Of a stretch of DNA of 64,000 nt, positions 1,437 to 36,841 are shown in pieces (within the stretch, counting starts at the first letter, position 1; every line of letters begins with the position of its first letter). A model generated the notes under the pieces. The model was not told the origin of the DNA. It made no database searches and saw nothing but the letters and a program-made list of their open reading frames with translations. A program made the position numbers and the translations under genes. Source of the stretch: an uncultured Poribacteria bacterium (lineage in GTDB: Bacteria; Poribacteria; WGA-4E; WGA-3G); contig OX638316.1 in assembly GCA_951812525.1 (NCBI GenBank), positions 2,908,506-2,972,505 of the forward strand. Direction: 5' to 3'.

Positions 1437-2819
1437 TTATCGCTCTGTCCCTAATTCTGACCGGAACCGTCTTCCCAAACGTCCACTGAGTGTTCTGACG
1501 ATTTCGCGCTCCGACGCTGCGATGTTATGCAATTCCGCAGGATCGTTCTCCAAGTCGTACAGTTCCGTTACATCGCTGTAGTTTTCAATGAGTTTATGTG
1601 TTGCTGTACGAATGCATCGGAAGTTTCGGAGCGCGCTCACGGTTTCGGAGTGATGTGTTTCCGTTTCACCGCGAAGGACAGGGGCAATAGACCTCGCGTC
1701 GATGTGCGGCAGCACGGGTACGCCAGCCATATCGCAGATCGTCGGATTCATGTCGATTAACTCAACCAAACTATCTGAAATTCGGTTGCCCGCGATACCC
1801 GGTCCGGCAACGAGAAGGGGGACTCTGAGTGATGCTTCGTAGGCGACACTCTTTGTGTAAAGTCCGTGATCTCCAAGCATTTCGCCGTGGTCGCTTGAAT
1901 ATATAATGTAGGTATTATCAAGCATGCCGCGTTCTTCAAGTGCACGGAGCATTTCGCCGATTTGGTCGTCAATCAGTTCCGTCGCCGCGCAGTATTGTTG
2001 TCGTGTTACAGCAATCTCCTCAGGACTTATATCAACGACGCGTCGTTTCACCCATTCGGGCTTTCCGTCCATATTGTCAGTGATAGCAGGCGGCATCTCG
2101 GCGTGGCGATACTTGTCGCCATATTCAGTCGGCGGATCGAAAGGGTCGTGTGGTCCGACGAAACTGACGAACAGATGCCACGGGAAGTCATCCGGGATAT
2201 TCTCAATAAATTCAGTTGATCGTCTGCCGATATAGGTATCAGCGAAATCCTCCGTCGGAAGGACAGAATCGTGAGAACCGTTTTTAATCCAGTGATTGCT
2301 ACTGCGTTTCTGATAATCTTCATGAAACGCTTGGAGCATATCTTTCTCTTGAAGATAGTGGGTATAAGGACCGATCGGGGTTGGCGAACTTCCAGCATGC
2401 ATTTTCCCTTCGCATTCTTCTGGATGTGTGAATCCCCAACTGTAGGTGCGTGGACGGTCGCCGTAGCGTCCGTTATATCCATCAGGCTTGGCGAGGTCGA
2501 GTTTTCCAACGCATCCGACCCGATAGCCGTGGTCGCGGAGTTGCTGATAGTAGGTCGGCATGGTAGGCGGTAAGAAACTCCCGTTGTCCACTGCTCCCAC
2601 GCGAGACGGTTGCAGTCCAGAGGCAAGAGCAATACGCGATGGTGCACAGACAGGCGCATTCGTGGTACAGTTTGGGAAACTCACGCCTTGTTCTGCTAAG
2701 CGTCGCAAGTTAGGCGTGTTGAGTGCTGCGGGAGCATTCTCATCAGTTTCCAGATAATCGTATCGGTGCTGGTCCGACATGATAAAGAGAACATTCGGTT
2801 TGTTCGTTCTTCGACGCAT
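1437..2819 (-). CDS. Formylglycine-type sulfatase
   Basis: Hydrolyses sulfate esters, most likely from sulfated polysaccharide or glycan. The 460-residue protein begins with the metal-binding stretch NVLFIMSDQHRYD (residues 9-21) and has the maturation motif CAPSR at 58-62, in which the cysteine becomes formylglycine; SSDHGEMLGDHG further on is the second metal site. No signal peptide is evident, so it may be cytoplasmic or exported unconventionally. The start ATG follows AAGGATATTTAA. First gene of the sulfatase-M28-mobA operon. A possible relic of a formylglycine-generating enzyme lies about 250 bp upstream on the same strand. Length is normal for the family. Confidence 0.92.
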   Translation of the reverse strand: MRRRTNKPNVLFIMSDQHRYDYLETDENAPAALNTPNLRRLAEQGVSFPNCTTNAPVCAPSRIALASGLQPSRVGAVDNGSFLPPTMPTYYQQLRDHGYRVGCVGKLDLAKPDGYNGRYGDRPRTYSWGFTHPEECEGKMHAGSSPTPIGPYTHYLQEKDMLQAFHEDYQKRSSNHWIKNGSHDSVLPTEDFADTYIGRRSTEFIENIPDDFPWHLFVSFVGPHDPFDPPTEYGDKYRHAEMPPAITDNMDGKPEWVKRRVVDISPEEIAVTRQQYCAATELIDDQIGEMLRALEERGMLDNTYIIYSSDHGEMLGDHGLYTKSVAYEASLRVPLLVAGPGIAGNRISDSLVELIDMNPTICDMAGVPVLPHIDARSIAPVLRGETETHHSETVSALRNFRCIRTATHKLIENYSDVTELYDLENDPAELHNIAASEREIVRTLSGRLGRRFRSELGTER

Positions 2820-3190: not shown

Positions 3191-3303
3191 CTAGCGTCTG
3201 ATCGAACGCCACACGTATCACCTTTGGCATCTGGTGACAATCCCGATCCTTCAACAGCCCCACTGCCAACGACCCATATAACTATCAAATATCTGTGATA
3301 TTC

Positions 3304-3406
3304 TGACGTTTACCGTGTGAGACAACACACAGCGCGTCCCCAATTTTGCCAGTTGGGGGGAGACGGGAGATAGAGAGTCTACCTCGGCAATCCGTCTCCA
3401 ACGTCA
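3304..3406 (+). ncRNA. Candidate structured RNA with four stems around a junction
   Basis: A closed secondary structure can be read directly: P1 TGACGTT (3304-3310) with AACGTCA (3400-3406); P2 GTGTG (3315-3319) with CACAC (3326-3330); P3 CCCCAA (3338-3343) with TTGGGG (3353-3358); P4 GGAGACGG (3359-3366) with CCGTCTCC (3392-3399). All 26 pairs are Watson-Crick, and P4 abuts both P3 and P1 for stacking. P3 can be extended by a T-G wobble at 3337/3359 only if the plus strand is transcribed. It matches no riboswitch or tRNA consensus I know; no tRNA T-loop is present. It lies about 290 bases upstream of the GNAT gene. Confidence 0.4.
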
Positions 3407-3485
3407 ATAGCAACTTACGTGATTTTCCAAAGAAAACAGTAAATCCCTAAGTCGTTTAAAATGTCATACAAATCTATCGAAATAT

Positions 3486-3560
3486 ATGATATAATTAAAC
3501 CCGCACTGGCAATCAGACTGGCAGTGCCGCGGTTCGGGAGTCTGAACCACTCGCCGAACC
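3486..3560 (+). promoter_or_regulatory. TATAAT-like box followed by hairpins that can refold
   Basis: TATAAT occurs at about 3490-3495. Ten bases later come GCACTG (3503-3508) paired with CAGTGC (3522-3527), then GGTTC (3531-3535), which can pair either with GAACC at 3544-3548 or, as GGTTCGG, with CCGAACC at 3554-3560. The two pairings are mutually exclusive. This may be the 5' leader of the GNAT gene at 3700. No convincing -35 box was seen. Confidence 0.25.
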
Positions 3561-3699
3561 ACCCATAACGGTATTACGGATGCCAATACATAGTATAGCA
3601 TAAATTCCAAATAGAATGCCACATTATTTTTCATACACCGTTATGACTTCCTAACCCAGAAAAAACGGTACACGCATTCTTTATTCGAGGAAAAGCCTA

Positions 3700-4170
3700 A
3701 TGAAAGTCGAGGTCGCTACACGCGCTGATATTCCGAGTTGGCTCGCACTGGCATCACAGGTAGAGTTTCTTTTCGGACCTATGGTTGATCAGCCTGAATT
3801 TCACAACGCACTCCGCAAAAATATAGATCGAGGAAGTGCCTTCTGTGTGCGGGAACGAGATCAATATGAGGGAGCACCGTTGATGGGAGGCTTGTTTCTG
3901 TCCTTCAGGTCACCCGCATATCATATTGGCTGGCTGTCCGTAGCTGAGCAATGGCGTCGTAGGGGTGTCGGCACAGTGCTCTTAGCGCATATATATGATT
4001 TGATCCAGCCATCTACCGAGTTATATGTCACAACATTCGGTGCGGATAATCCCGATGGTCAGCCAGCGCGACAATTCTACAAGAAGATGGGTTTTGAACT
4101 TTTTTCAAAGGCACCACCAGGACCTGAAGGAGGATCCAGAGAGATCTTCCGAAAGTCCTTGAATACATAA
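3700..4170 (+). CDS. GNAT-family N-acetyltransferase
   Basis: Transfers an acetyl group from acetyl-CoA to an unknown amine. The 156-residue protein contains the acetyl-CoA pyrophosphate-binding motif as QWRRRGVGTVL (about residues 86-96), preceded by the beta-strand HIGWLSV and followed by the C-terminal ARQFYKKMGFELF typical of the fold. ATG start with GAGGAAAAGCC just upstream. The gene stands alone between a long non-coding stretch and the CRISPR leader region. Nothing indicates its substrate. Confidence 0.85.
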   Translation: MKVEVATRADIPSWLALASQVEFLFGPMVDQPEFHNALRKNIDRGSAFCVRERDQYEGAPLMGGLFLSFRSPAYHIGWLSVAEQWRRRGVGTVLLAHIYDLIQPSTELYVTTFGADNPDGQPARQFYKKMGFELFSKAPPGPEGGSREIFRKSLNT

Positions 4171-4250
4171 AACGTCGCACACCTGCAACCCTTCACACCT
4201 GCAACCCCGCAACATTGCAGACCTACATCTCCAGTAACCTGTCCATTCCA

Positions 4251-4683: not shown

Positions 4684-5174
4684 CTTGCAACACACTATCC
4701 CGTTTGAAGGGAATTGAAACTCTTTGAACCCTGCCCGAGTATAAACAGGTGGAATTAACTCCTTGCAACACACTATCCCGTTTGAAGGGAATTGAAACGT
4801 TTCAATCTTTTTATCATAGACCTTTGCGCTTGCACGCTTGCAACACACTATCCCGTTTGAAGGGAATTGAAACTTTGCACATCACTTGGTAACTCAAGTT
4901 TGTACAGATTGCTTGCAACACACTATCCCGTTTGAAGGGAATTGAAACCCTTGATTATATGCCCTCACCGCATATGTGAGTGCATCCTCTTGCAATACAC
5001 TATCCCGTTTGAAGGGAATTGAAACCATCGCAATCATTACATTTTTCATTTTCCAGAGGCTTTGCAATATACTATCCCGTTTGAAGGGAATTGAAACCCT
5101 TGATTATATGCCCTCACCGCATATGTGAGTGCATCCTCTTGCAATACACTATCCCGTTTGAAGGGAATTGAACC
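4684..5174 (+). CRISPR. CRISPR array, 7 repeats and 6 spacers, no cas genes nearby
   Basis: The 37-base repeats begin CTTGCAACACACTATCC and end GGGAATTGAAAC. They lie at 4684-4720, 4762-4798, 4837-4873, 4912-4948, 4989-5025, 5061-5097 and 5138-5174. Spacers are 41, 38, 38, 40, 35 and 40 bases. The repeat holds TCCC/GGGA inverted arms and the ATTGAAAC tail common in type I and III systems. Repeats 1-4 are identical; 5 and 7 carry CAATACAC; 6 carries CAATATAC; and 7 ends GAACC. Decay rises to the right, so the leader is on the left. Spacers 4 (4949-4988) and 6 (5098-5137) are identical. No cas gene is recognisable anywhere in the window. Confidence 0.97.
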
Positions 5175-5183
5175 CGGACGTGC

Positions 5184-22292: not shown

Positions 22293-23513
22293 ATGTCTAA
22301 CAAAGAATCTCACAATTTTAGGCGTGGAAGTGTCAAAAAGCGTTTGTTTTTAATGACGATTGTGTTGTTTGTTTCGATTTTACTTCCGCTGGAGAGTTTT
22401 TCTCAAATCGTCGCACCTCAAGAGCTTCTGCCTGTAGGGGCTATCGCGCGTCTGAGAGATAAAATCTCTATTGCTCGGGATATTGCGTATTCACCCGATG
22501 GTAAGAGTATAGCGATAGGACACGGTGGGGGAACAATCATCTATGATACCAGCACCTACGAAGAAATCGGATCCCTGCGATCTGGAGGTATTGATTCCGT
22601 CGCTTTTTCGCCGGATGGGAAAATACTCGTCAGCGTAGGTGATAACTATAACAGTTCTATCTGGTATCTGCAAACAGGGGGATTTCGCCAACTCAGTGTT
22701 GGAAGTCTACAGGTCGTCGCGTATAGTCCCGATGGATTAACATTTGCAACTGGAAGTGGTTCACGAAATGATGAACTACGTATATGGGACCCACAAACGG
22801 GTCTACCCCTGCATAGTTTCGTTCGTGGTAACATCACGAGCCTCGCGTATAGTCCCGATGGGCGGATAATCGCAAGTAATGACAGATGGAGCGAATCTAG
22901 CATTCGGTTATCGGATGCCAAAACGGGTGAACTCCTGCTCGATATAGACGCTCCGCGCGTCTACTGCCTCGCGTATAGTCCCGATGGACTCACCCTTGCG
23001 AGTGGGACCGCGCATCAGAGTGATGCGGATGAAACTGTAAATCTCTGGGACGTAAAAACGCGTGAAAAACTCCAAACATTCACAGGACATACGTATGCGA
23101 TCCGCAGCGTCGCCTTCAGCCCTGATGGACTTACCCTTGCGAGTGCTGGAGTTGATGAGACCGTCTTTTTATGGGATGTAAAAACGGGTAAAGCTCTCAA
23201 TAAATTCATAGGACATACGAATGGGATCCACAGCGTCGCCTTCAGCCGTGATGGATCAATCCTCGCAAGTGGCGGAGATGATAGTCAGGTGTTTTTCTGG
23301 GGACTCTCATCTAATGCCCCGCAACCCGTTGCCCCGCAACCTCGTGAACCTGACCTAGACGTAAACGATGATGGAACCGTTAACATTTTAGACCTCGTGC
23401 AACTCGCATGGAGAATGGAGAATGGAGATTACTTCGAGGGAGAAGATGTCAATGCTGATGGAGTCATCAACATTTTAGACCTCGTGCAAGTCGCAGGCGC
23501 CATCGGATTATAG
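22293..23513 (+). CDS. Secreted WD40-repeat protein with C-terminal dockerin-like pair
   Basis: The 406-residue protein starts with a signal peptide (about 1-33, LFLMTIVLFVSILLPLESFSQ). Residues 45-345 form about seven WD40-type blades with the VAFSPDG and LASxxxDxTVxLWD pattern, blades 1-4 being more divergent than 5-7. The end holds two calcium-loop motifs, DVNDDGTVNILDLVQLA and DVNADGVINILDLVQVA, as in type I dockerins. WD40 propellers bind other proteins; the partner is unknown. After the stop there is an out-of-frame remnant of the sorting domain that such proteins normally carry, so this copy has probably been shortened. AGAGGATTTACA precedes the ATG. Confidence 0.8.
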   Translation: MSNKESHNFRRGSVKKRLFLMTIVLFVSILLPLESFSQIVAPQELLPVGAIARLRDKISIARDIAYSPDGKSIAIGHGGGTIIYDTSTYEEIGSLRSGGIDSVAFSPDGKILVSVGDNYNSSIWYLQTGGFRQLSVGSLQVVAYSPDGLTFATGSGSRNDELRIWDPQTGLPLHSFVRGNITSLAYSPDGRIIASNDRWSESSIRLSDAKTGELLLDIDAPRVYCLAYSPDGLTLASGTAHQSDADETVNLWDVKTREKLQTFTGHTYAIRSVAFSPDGLTLASAGVDETVFLWDVKTGKALNKFIGHTNGIHSVAFSRDGSILASGGDDSQVFFWGLSSNAPQPVAPQPREPDLDVNDDGTVNILDLVQLAWRMENGDYFEGEDVNADGVINILDLVQVAGAIGL

Positions 23514-33016: not shown

Positions 33017-36000
33017 ATGAAAAAGATACAACTCTTAACCTTTACACTACTATTAGTTTCTATCTCCTTGCTGCCTACACGAGTAGCAACCGCTCAACTT
33101 AAAGCGACACTTGAAGGACACACAGATCTCGTCTGGAGCGTGGCATTCAGTCCGAATGGACGGACGCTCGCCAGCGGGAGTCAAGACAGAACCATTCGTT
33201 TGTGGAACGCAAACAACGGAAATCTCAAAACAATTCTTACTGGACATAGAGATGCTGTCATCAGCGTTGCCTTCAGCCCCGATGGTCGAACGCTGGCGAG
33301 TGCCAGTGGCGACCAATCGATCCGGCTATGGAATCCAAACAATGGAAATCTTAAAAGAACGCTCTCTGGACATACCAATGCTGTCACCAGCGTTGCCTTC
33401 AGCCCCGATGGTCGAACGCTGGCGAGTGCCAGCTGGGACGCAACCATTCGGCTATGGAATCCAAACAATGGAAAACTCAAAAGAACGCTCAAAGAGCATA
33501 CCGATGCTGTCGATTCTGTGGTGTTTTCCTCGGATGGTCGAACGCTGGCGAGTAGCAGCCGCGACCAAACGATCCGATTATGGAATCCAAACAACGGAAA
33601 ACTCATAAGAACTCTTACTGGACATACCGGTGATATCCCACGCATAATGTTCAGTCCCGATGGGCAGACACTTGCCAGTGCGAGTCGAGACGACACAGTT
33701 CGGTTATGGAATCCAAACACCGGGCAACAAAAAAGAACCCTTACCAATCGGACAGGATGGACAAAGCCAGTCGTATTCAGTTCCGATGGTGCGACACTTC
33801 TCATTGGCGGACACGGGATTTTCAATTGGGATACACAGACAGGTGAATACAAAAAGCCCCTCGCCAGAGATATAACGGATTTCTTCTCTGTCGTCTTCAG
33901 CCCTAACGGACAGATCGTTGCGAGTGGGAGCGCAGACAATAAGGTTCGCTTATGGGAATACAATGCTTCCGATTATGAGATTCCGTCTATCACTGCAAAC
34001 GGCATGGTCCGGCTGGTTTACTTCCTTCCTAACGACCGACCCGTTCGGCAAGAAAGAGTGACAGCACTTCGTCAGTTGATTAAAGAGGCACAGCAGTTTT
34101 TCGCTGACGAGATGCAAAGCCATGGATTCGGTAGAAAAACCTTCTCTGTTGAAACCGATAAAGATGGTGAACCTGTGGTCCACCGCATTGACGGTAAGTT
34201 CTCGGAAGAACACTATTACAAAGAGGGCACTGGTTATAAAGTCTGGACAGAAGTTCGCGATCACTTTGACGATAAAGATCTCCAGCACATCTATTTTACT
34301 GCGATAGATCTCAGTCACGAAATCCTTCATGGTGGGCAATCAAGCGGGGAAGGCACTATCAACTTTTACTCTCAAAACGAGCAGAGGGTTGCATGGAGAC
34401 GGCCAGGCATAACACAAAGGGAAGAAGCGTATGGAGGCTTTGTCCTAATTCCCGCGTCTGGTACCGATTTTGAAACACTTGCTTTGACTGCCCATGAACT
34501 TGGACATGCTCTTGGCTTGCTCCACGATTTTCGGGAAGCTCGGAAAAGTGACTATGTCATGGCTTACGGAAGCCAAAGTCGATTATCTAAGTGTTCCGCC
34601 GAATGGTTGTCTGTCAGTCGCTTCTTTAATACAGAACCCATATCAGCTAACGCTCCAGCGGAGATTCAACTTCTCTCTGTGCGAGCTTATAGTCGCGAAA
34701 CAATAAGTCTTCGTTTTAAGGTGACGGATCCCGACGGACTTCATTATGCTCAGTTGCTGCTACCAGAACTCGACCCTGAAGGTGTCTCGGTTCCCCGTAC
34801 TTTGTTCGACTGTAAACGACTCAACGGCGAAACAAGTACATTTGAATCCTCCGTTAGAACAGCAGAACTCATTGATAGAGCCACGCTTCAGATTATTGAT
34901 ATGAACGGAAATGTCACATGGACAACGCTGCCTATCGAGTTGGATGTGGCAGTATCTGCCCAAAATGTCTTAGATGTAAGCAGTGATGGTGTCGTGAACA
35001 CCTCGGATTTGACACGCATTGCCTCGCGGTTTGGACAACGTGGGAACAATCCAGCGGACGTTAACGAAGATGGGGTTGTCAATACTGTCGATCTGCTTTT
35101 AGTTGCAGCAAACTTGTCTTCTGTGTCCCGACAAGCAGCTGAGACGTTCGCTGCTGCAGATGTTCAGAAATGGCTAAACGATGCCAAGCAGCTTGAAGTT
35201 GAAGATACAATTCTGCGGAAAGGAATTGTATTTCTCGAATATCTCTTGACTGAGATAGCCCTATCGTCAAAGCCTACGAAGGCAGCATCAAGTCCTTCCA
35301 AAGCAATCTTTGAGGGACACACGGATTTTGTTTCATCTGTAGCGTTCAGTCCAGATGGACAGACGTTGGCAAGTGCAAGTTGGGATAGGACTATACGCCT
35401 GTGGGATCCACACACGGCACAACTCAAAACGCTCCTTATAGGACATAAAAATATTGTCTATGGCATTGTGTTCAGTCCTGATGGGCAGACACTGGCGAGT
35501 GCGAGCCCAGATACAACCATACGATTATGGGATCCACACACCGGTAAACACAAAACATCGCTCAGGGCACATACCGGATTCTCGCACGCCGGTTTCTTTT
35601 CCGTTGCGTTCAGTCCTGATGGACAAACACTCGCCACTGGTGGTGATTCCAGTGACCGTGCTATCCGATTGTGGAGTCTACGCGAAGAAAAAAATATAAG
35701 AACACTCACAGGACATACAGATCGAATTACATCAATATCGTTTTCTCCAGATGGACAGACACTTGCCAGCGGGAGCGCGGATAATACCATCAGATTATGG
35801 AATCTAAACAACGGACAACTCAAAACAACCCTTACTGGACATACACGGGAGGTTGAGTCCGTTGCATTTAGCCCAGATGGACAGATACTTGCCAGTGGAA
35901 GTCGGGATCGTACAATTCGACTGTGGAATCCAGAAACTGGAAAACTCAAATCAACGCTCACAGGCTATACAGATTGGATTAATCCCTTAGCGTTCAGCCC

Positions 36001-36841
36001 AGATGGACAGATACTTGCCAGTGGAAGTCAAGATCAGAGAATCCGCTTATGGGATGCACAGACCGGTGAATATAAAAACACCCTTCAGGAAGGTGCCGGT
36101 CATATTATATCTGTTGTGTTCAGTCCAGATGGACAACTGCTTGCGAGTGGAAGAGAGGATGGAACAGTTCGACTCTTGGATGTCCAAACGCTACTTGAGC
36201 CGATTTCGACTTCGCAACCCGATCTAGTAGATTCTGTAGATGTCAACAGCGATGGTATAGTGAACATCTTGGATCTGGTATCAGTATCCTCAAACTTCGG
36301 AAAAACTGGAGATAATATCGCAGATGTCAATGGCGATGGTATCGTCAATATCGTGGACCTCGTCAAAGTCGCTGGTGAGATGGGAGCCGGCGCAGCCGCG
36401 CCTTCAGCACACCCACAGACGCTGGAGATACTCACCGCAGCTGATGTGCAACAATGGCTCATACAAGCACAACATTTAGATCTTACAGATGCTACATCCC
36501 AACGAGGTATCCTCATGCTTCAGCAGCTTCTCGCAGCACTCATCCCGAAAGATACATCGCTGTTACCCAACTATCCCAATCCATTCAACCCAGAGACGTG
36601 GATCCCGTACCAGTTGTCTGAACCCGCAGAGGTGACGCTCACCATCTATGCGGTAGACGGCAGATTGATTCGGACATTGACACTGGGACACCAGCCCGCG
36701 GGGATGTATCAGAGCAAAAGTCGTGCAGCCTATTGGGACGGTAGGAATGAGGTAGGTGAACCTGTGGCGAGTGGTGTGTATTTCTATACATTCACAGCGG
36801 GTAAGTTTACTGCCACCCGGAAAATGCTGATTCGTAAGTAA
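33017..36841 (+). CDS. Giant secreted protein: WD40 propeller, metzincin-like protease, dockerin pair, second WD40 propeller, dockerin pair, sorting domain
   Basis: 1274 residues. Signal peptide 1-27 (ends TRVATAQ). Seven WD40 blades at about 28-312, each with FSPDGRTLASASxDxTIRLWNP. Residues 320-560 hold a zinc peptidase-like domain with HELGHALGLLHD at 493-504, the extended HExxHxxGxxHD motif. Dockerin-like loops DVSSDGVVNTSDLTRIA and DVNEDGVVNTVDLLLVA at about 651-698, seven more blades at 762-1060, a second dockerin pair at 1073-1125 (DVNSDGIVNILDLV, DVNGDGIVNIVDLV), and the C-terminal domain NYPNPFNPETWIPYQLSEPA to RKMLIRK (1180-1274). The last is like secretion/anchoring domains of the type IX kind. 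Presumably a surface or secreted protease held by protein-protein contacts. Confidence 0.88.
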   Translation: MKKIQLLTFTLLLVSISLLPTRVATAQLKATLEGHTDLVWSVAFSPNGRTLASGSQDRTIRLWNANNGNLKTILTGHRDAVISVAFSPDGRTLASASGDQSIRLWNPNNGNLKRTLSGHTNAVTSVAFSPDGRTLASASWDATIRLWNPNNGKLKRTLKEHTDAVDSVVFSSDGRTLASSSRDQTIRLWNPNNGKLIRTLTGHTGDIPRIMFSPDGQTLASASRDDTVRLWNPNTGQQKRTLTNRTGWTKPVVFSSDGATLLIGGHGIFNWDTQTGEYKKPLARDITDFFSVVFSPNGQIVASGSADNKVRLWEYNASDYEIPSITANGMVRLVYFLPNDRPVRQERVTALRQLIKEAQQFFADEMQSHGFGRKTFSVETDKDGEPVVHRIDGKFSEEHYYKEGTGYKVWTEVRDHFDDKDLQHIYFTAIDLSHEILHGGQSSGEGTINFYSQNEQRVAWRRPGITQREEAYGGFVLIPASGTDFETLALTAHELGHALGLLHDFREARKSDYVMAYGSQSRLSKCSAEWLSVSRFFNTEPISANAPAEIQLLSVRAYSRETISLRFKVTDPDGLHYAQLLLPELDPEGVSVPRTLFDCKRLNGETSTFESSVRTAELIDRATLQIIDMNGNVTWTTLPIELDVAVSAQNVLDVSSDGVVNTSDLTRIASRFGQRGNNPADVNEDGVVNTVDLLLVAANLSSVSRQAAETFAAADVQKWLNDAKQLEVEDTILRKGIVFLEYLLTEIALSSKPTKAASSPSKAIFEGHTDFVSSVAFSPDGQTLASASWDRTIRLWDPHTAQLKTLLIGHKNIVYGIVFSPDGQTLASASPDTTIRLWDPHTGKHKTSLRAHTGFSHAGFFSVAFSPDGQTLATGGDSSDRAIRLWSLREEKNIRTLTGHTDRITSISFSPDGQTLASGSADNTIRLWNLNNGQLKTTLTGHTREVESVAFSPDGQILASGSRDRTIRLWNPETGKLKSTLTGYTDWINPLAFSPDGQILASGSQDQRIRLWDAQTGEYKNTLQEGAGHIISVVFSPDGQLLASGREDGTVRLLDVQTLLEPISTSQPDLVDSVDVNSDGIVNILDLVSVSSNFGKTGDNIADVNGDGIVNIVDLVKVAGEMGAGAAAPSAHPQTLEILTAADVQQWLIQAQHLDLTDATSQRGILMLQQLLAALIPKDTSLLPNYPNPFNPETWIPYQLSEPAEVTLTIYAVDGRLIRTLTLGHQPAGMYQSKSRAAYWDGRNEVGEPVASGVYFYTFTAGKFTATRKMLIRK

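Follow-up and report, generated by a model that had tools for sequence, protein, structure and literature searches.

What kind of element, if any, is marked by the self-complementary 103-base segment at positions 3304-3406 of the DNA analyzed here, a 64,000-nt stretch of an uncultured Poribacteria genome that we refer to as the window? The initial annotation proposed a four-stem RNA on the plus strand, and the fold that it described is present at that location: four perfect stems with 26 Watson-Crick pairs and one 25-base loop. Read from the sequence, these are a 7-bp closing stem (TGACGTT 3304-3310/AACGTCA 3400-3406), a 5-bp hairpin (GTGTG 3315-3319/CACAC 3326-3330), a 6-bp hairpin (CCCCAA 3338-3343/TTGGGG 3353-3358), and an 8-bp stem (GGAGACGG 3359-3366/CCGTCTCC 3392-3399) that closes the loop at 3367-3391. 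Such an arrangement had been considered unlikely to form by chance, and folding agrees, with a minimum free energy of -41.5 kcal/mol for the plus-strand segment vs -28.6 +/- 3.55 in shuffles (z -3.63; 0 of 200 shuffles equally stable). The complement of the segment is more stable still (-47.8, z -5.15) and beats all 200 shuffles.

Comparison with related copies shows that these hairpins are one end of a larger folded RNA, for which chance is a poor explanation; we hold it very probable that the element is a functional RNA or leader. The proposed limits were too narrow: the conserved unit spans about 300 nt, roughly three times the length of the original segment, and in the window it occupies 3306-3589 on the minus strand (about 284-296 nt, with the 5' end near 3589 and the 3' end near 3306-3296). 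What survives of the original candidate is a conserved, unannotated structured RNA, while its strand, its limits, and its open pocket find no support. The 25-base loop, previously taken for a possible ligand pocket, is occupied in relatives by a helix (GGTAG/CTACC) with 95.5% of cells paired, and the 5-bp GTGTG hairpin was rejected as a family feature, being absent as a conserved element from the other copies. In line with the reported lack of resemblance to any known riboswitch, Rfam 15 yields 0 matches in the window, and a permissive Rfam 15 search (E up to 10) of window positions 3200-3750 and of the copy L111 returned only matches far below gathering scores. ARAGORN likewise predicted 0 tRNA or tmRNA genes in the 64-kb window.

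Conserved structure and probable RNA strand

The window copy is recognized at 201.5 bits (E 2.1e-49) by a minus-strand covariance model built without it, whereas the strongest family copies reach 357 bits. Across 39 copies, 95.8% of the minus-strand pairs of the approximately 300-nt structure are kept, compared with 34-49% when the structure is slid along the alignment. Homologous loci thus retain the pairings, and they do so with compensating changes: in the same 39 of 54 copies, both sides have changed in 15 of 80 minus-strand pairs vs 5.4 +/- 1.6 in shuffles, amounting to 38 both-side-changed cells vs 9.3, and on the plus strand, with 46 of 54 copies, in 19 of 70 pairs (7.0 shuffled, 7-12 slid). 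Alignment A1 contains 46 of the 54 copies, eight truncated or poor ones having been dropped (L091, L098, L100-L104, L118). Alignment A5 and model R3 contain 39, with divergent copies held out (the window copy, L074, L086, L105, L108, L116, L119) and with the partial copies L102 and L103 and those lacking a clean start (L098, L100, L101, L104, L118, L122) left aside.

Covariation is found in helices P2, P6, and P7, with single covarying pairs in P5 and P8. The hairpin P2 (GGTTCGG...CCGAACC; 3531-3560, minus strand) carries the best covariation of the element, with C-G/G-C, G-C/C-G, and A-U/U-A exchanges, and an unbiased scan over 72,771 column pairs places three of its pairs among the four top signals. 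The 8-bp stem of the original segment and its 25-base loop correspond to helices P7 and P8 (3359-3399, minus strand), whose pairing is kept across the 39 copies (99.7% of cells in P7, which has both-side changes at 2 pairs, and 95.5% in P8). On the minus strand of the segment, helix H1 (3304-3310/3400-3406) encloses H2 (3338-3343/3353-3358) and P7/P8, with H1 paired in 96.3% of cells and H2 in 91.4%. Hairpin H7, of the type GCACUGcCAA/UUGcCAGUGC (3503-3527, minus strand), is paired in 100% of cells in the 39 copies, and the long-range pairings P1 and P3 in 95.8-100%, and yet H7 excludes both P1 and P3. The RNA therefore has two mutually exclusive conserved folds, P1+P3+P9 and H7+H2+H1, of which the fold originally drawn is the mirror image of the second, minus H7. 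P1, P3, H7, H1, H2, and P9 are all conserved with zero both-side changes. An additional pairing in model R1, CATTCGTAA/TTACGGATG, was dropped because TCGTAA/TTACGA, a local helix, shows covariation, with both-side changes in 4 pairs.

We consider it likely that the RNA is made from the minus strand (window orientation), because a promoter-like site, the bias of wobble pairs, better folding, and the co-orientation of the downstream gene all favor that strand over the plus strand proposed initially. Of 51 scanned copies, 42 carry the sequence TTGTA[T/A]-16 to 18-TG.TATAAT directly 5' of a conserved GGCATCC. Its -10 element keeps the A at its second and the T at its sixth position, and its -35 element matches only 3-4 of 6 consensus bases. 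In the window this promoter-like site is degenerate (3592-3621, minus strand; -35 TGGCAT 3616-3621, 18-nt spacer, -10 TATACT 3592-3597, TG extension) and was not flagged by a generic consensus scan. Generic promoter and terminator scans gave no call at the window copy of the RNA or on the minus strand of L090, and inspection by eye revealed no sigma-54 promoter within the element. In helices that are possible on both strands, minus-strand G-U combinations number 60 vs 29 for A-C, although the wobbles of helix P2b point to the plus strand. Window positions 3296-3591 fold to -115.9 kcal/mol on the minus strand (z -6.51) and -89.6 on the plus strand (z -4.85), and over 13 copies, with 20 approximate shuffles per copy, the z-scores are -6.41 and -4.94, minus being better in 12 of the 13. 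The gene 3' of the RNA is co-oriented with it in 46 of 50 copies, counting L094 as not co-oriented despite the minus-strand gene (LDL-receptor repeats) present there, and, counted by gene family, in 17 of 21 (p 0.007), with L106 assigned to the gene beyond its winged-helix-like open reading frame. Covariance scores do not decide between strands, with held-out copies scoring about equally under plus- and minus-built models; the plus-strand reading was the one first pursued and was then given up.

Distribution and spread of the copies

The RNA represents a narrowly distributed new structured RNA family, carried in several copies by sponge-associated Poribacteria. A DNA search (E up to 0.1) hit 38 of 97 genomes, the source genome included, with a few very short matches, and the piece common to unrelated contexts corresponds to about 3333-3640 of the window and extends further in other copies. 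Covariance models (E up to 0.01) match 38 of 84 genomes of the phylum with R1 and 37 of 84 with R3, all within the family to which the window belongs and in two of its genera, with up to 6 matches per genome; no match was obtained in 26 genomes outside that family. The exact pattern of the best hairpin, searched across 84,980 species, occurs in 30 stretches, all titled Poribacteria, with 0 exact matches in viral contigs. A tail of weak covariance-model matches indicates that degraded copies exist. In the parts of the literature accessible to our search no paper on a structured RNA of Poribacteria was found, and structured RNAs of this phylum appear to be unexplored.

On a tree of 46 copies, clustering by genomic context exceeds chance. 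Copies beside the neighbor families F8 and F21 are nonetheless intermixed, two copies at different sites in one genome (L078 and L080 in G032) pair with 100/96 support, and copies within one genome share long stretches; copies have therefore moved or been converted between sites, many of which are old. At one locus (L123, G004:C87), two RNA copies in the same direction, separated by about 5.9 kb, flank a gene of 1017 aa.

The single-contig, 5.06-Mb source genome contains only one copy, as judged by a repeat search of that genome. The closest relative of this copy is the one in G028, with which the window shares the element and, on its promoter side, a gene for a GNAT acetyltransferase (3700-4170, plus strand; assigned by Pfam and aligned in G028). 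Similarity drops off on both sides of this common stretch (3282-4184), and the element is less identical than the GNAT gene. The window copy, a diverged member of the family, may be partly decayed or differently controlled.

A possible leader and its alternatives

A conserved structure is found upstream of a gene and on the strand of that gene, and two mutually exclusive conserved folds adjoin a weak terminator-like hairpin (P9, with a 24-nt loop), which suggests a leader or attenuator; we put the probability of this mechanism at roughly 45%. From the observed structure, distribution, and neighbors we infer transcription, switching, and regulation as follows. A sigma-70-like promoter of its own would drive minus-strand transcription of an RNA of about 300 nt, which would serve as 5' leader to the co-oriented downstream gene. 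In the P1+P3 fold, the 5' arm of P9 would be free and P9 would be followed by a U-run, whereas the H7+H2+H1 fold would tie up that arm, so that a signal, either a ligand or a protein, could shift the balance between folds and set the level of read-through into the downstream gene.

That gene would originally have been a small winged-helix-like regulator. A protein of about 120 aa with weak TrmB similarity, and with only weak matches in Pfam, PHROGs, and NCBIfam, is encoded after 7-8 RNA copies, including the G028 copy. Seven of 58 genomes contain a total of 12 matches to it, and 8 of these lie 3' of an RNA copy at a distance of no more than about 220 nt. The RNA with this gene is probably the ancestral arrangement, because the conserved spacer ends at the gene's own SD-like motif, TGAAAGG, followed by its start codon. 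About 11 copies without the gene retain the SD-like end. At one of the divergent copies (L086:4122-7814, minus strand), an in-frame ATG after that end opens a 1231-aa protein with a C-terminal MarR-like winged helix.

Copies now also precede genes for secreted surface proteins. By Pfam, the 3'-side genes encode WD40, VWA, LDL-receptor repeats with dockerin and FlgD_ig, and cohesin/dockerin proteins, as well as a sulfatase-modifying enzyme with a caspase domain, Omp85, an outer-membrane barrel, and bacterial Ig domains. Judged by a rule of our own making, 32 of 46 of these genes are signal-peptide-like; among the other genes of these loci the count is 146 of 443, and on the promoter side it is 7 of 49. 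Counted by gene family the enrichment is modest (10 of 21 vs 39 of 178, p 0.015). In the window, the winged-helix-like gene has been lost, and the next co-oriented gene 3' of the RNA encodes a sulfatase (1437-2819, minus strand; Pfam Sulfatase 2.8e-45).

Several observations weaken the leader reading. The competing helices lack both-side changes, the generic promoter and terminator scans of the L090 minus strand were negative, and both the -35 element and P9 are weak. The distance from the RNA to the 3'-side gene varies from 45 to 1040 nt, and the secreted-protein enrichment at the family level is only modest. In the window itself, the sulfatase has its own promoter-like site (2931-2903, 11 of 12 matches), the winged-helix-like gene is absent, and no U-run was found at the 3' end of the copy. 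A scan for a separate promoter between the RNA and the gene, with 20 of 44 copies scoring vs 14.1 expected, is uninformative.

The variable distance and the sulfatase's own promoter-like site would also suit the main rival, a free-standing, trans-acting multicopy sRNA gene with its own promoter and terminator, for which the co-orientation of neighbors would be a matter of history. Such a gene would be consistent with the constant body of about 300 nt between the promoter-like site and a T-run, which stands immediately 3' of the RNA in 33 of 54 copies, and with the many different neighbor families. We regard it as somewhat unlikely, since co-orientation extends to so many copies and families, the terminator is weak, and the conserved unit runs about 100 nt beyond the T-run and reaches the winged-helix-like gene's SD-like motif.

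A further alternative is a nonautonomous DNA element, mobile or spread by gene conversion, whose hairpins would work as single-stranded DNA, with any RNA being incidental. Copies dispersed over unrelated contexts, the within-genome clustering, the intermixed F8 and F21 copies, the long shared stretches, the degraded tail, and the element and GNAT gene shared with G028 between otherwise unrelated flanks would all fit this explanation. We nevertheless find it improbable: terminal inverted repeats spanning the unit are absent from the three loci inspected (L078, L111, L106), the promoter-like tail is conserved, the wobble bias points to one strand, and the same neighbor recurs in many species, with F1 (about 700 aa; receiver and Sigma54_activat domains) on the promoter side of 21 of 54 copies and F8 (362 aa; Sigma54_activat) on the same side of 10 of 54. 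Those two neighbors, with their shared Sigma54_activat domain, might instead point to a DNA operator or recognition site for sigma-54-type regulators, but this is highly improbable, as exchanges within stems alter the half-site sequence, unlike in protein sites, many copies have neither F1 nor F8, and F1 also occurs without the element (L186-L189).

Of the 58 genomes of the family, 24 have F1 and 23 have F8. One F1 gene (L115:8715-10841) reads GAFADA in place of the usual GAFTGA, and LLNVE where the phospho-acceptor aspartate would be expected; given these deviations, F1 may work differently from an ordinary sigma-54 activator. A TnpB/OrfB_IS605-like gene (L108:6042-7364, minus strand) lies on the promoter side of an RNA copy, before a gamma-glutamyltransferase-like gene, and the related G007 locus (L116) is without this TnpB-like gene.

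Known systems and other features of the window

If the leader reading is correct, it offers a way into how a major uncultured sponge symbiont regulates its possibly host-contacting surface proteins of the WD40, VWA, and dockerin types, and it provides ligand and structural studies with a new class of large RNA. Like riboswitches and protein-binding leaders, attenuating bacterial leaders among which it would belong, the Poribacteria RNA is a structured 5' region before a co-oriented gene with alternative pairings near a U-run; it differs in its unusually long distance to many genes, its weak terminator, its confinement to one bacterial family, and its lack of an Rfam match. OLE, GOLLD, ROOL, and raiA are large ornate bacterial noncoding RNAs of about 300 nt or more with elaborate folds, and the Poribacteria RNA resembles them in size and elaboration, but it has no Rfam 15 match, and a single genome can carry as many as 6 copies next to unrelated genes. 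In type III toxin-antitoxin loci, an RNA is followed by a small protein gene, an order recalling that of the RNA and the winged-helix-like gene; the RNA within 3296-3591 contains no tandem repeat of the kind found there, and the winged-helix-like protein is weakly TrmB-like with no toxin match.

A more far-reaching scenario, which we consider improbable, begins with a module of RNA and winged-helix regulator that spread through the genomes of sponge symbionts. With the regulator lost from most sites, the module would have been put to new use as a common switchable leader of secreted-protein genes, and one RNA class would coordinate the host-facing, eukaryote-like surface proteins of an uncultured phylum.

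Two further features of the window were noted. Tandem repeats of 126 bp (42 codons) at 23046-23282, 33203-33738, and 35344-36029 are as expected for WD40 repeats, and a CRISPR-like array at 4684-5180 comprises seven repeats of about 37 nt ending in GTTTGAAGGGAATTGAAAC, spaced 72-78 nt apart.
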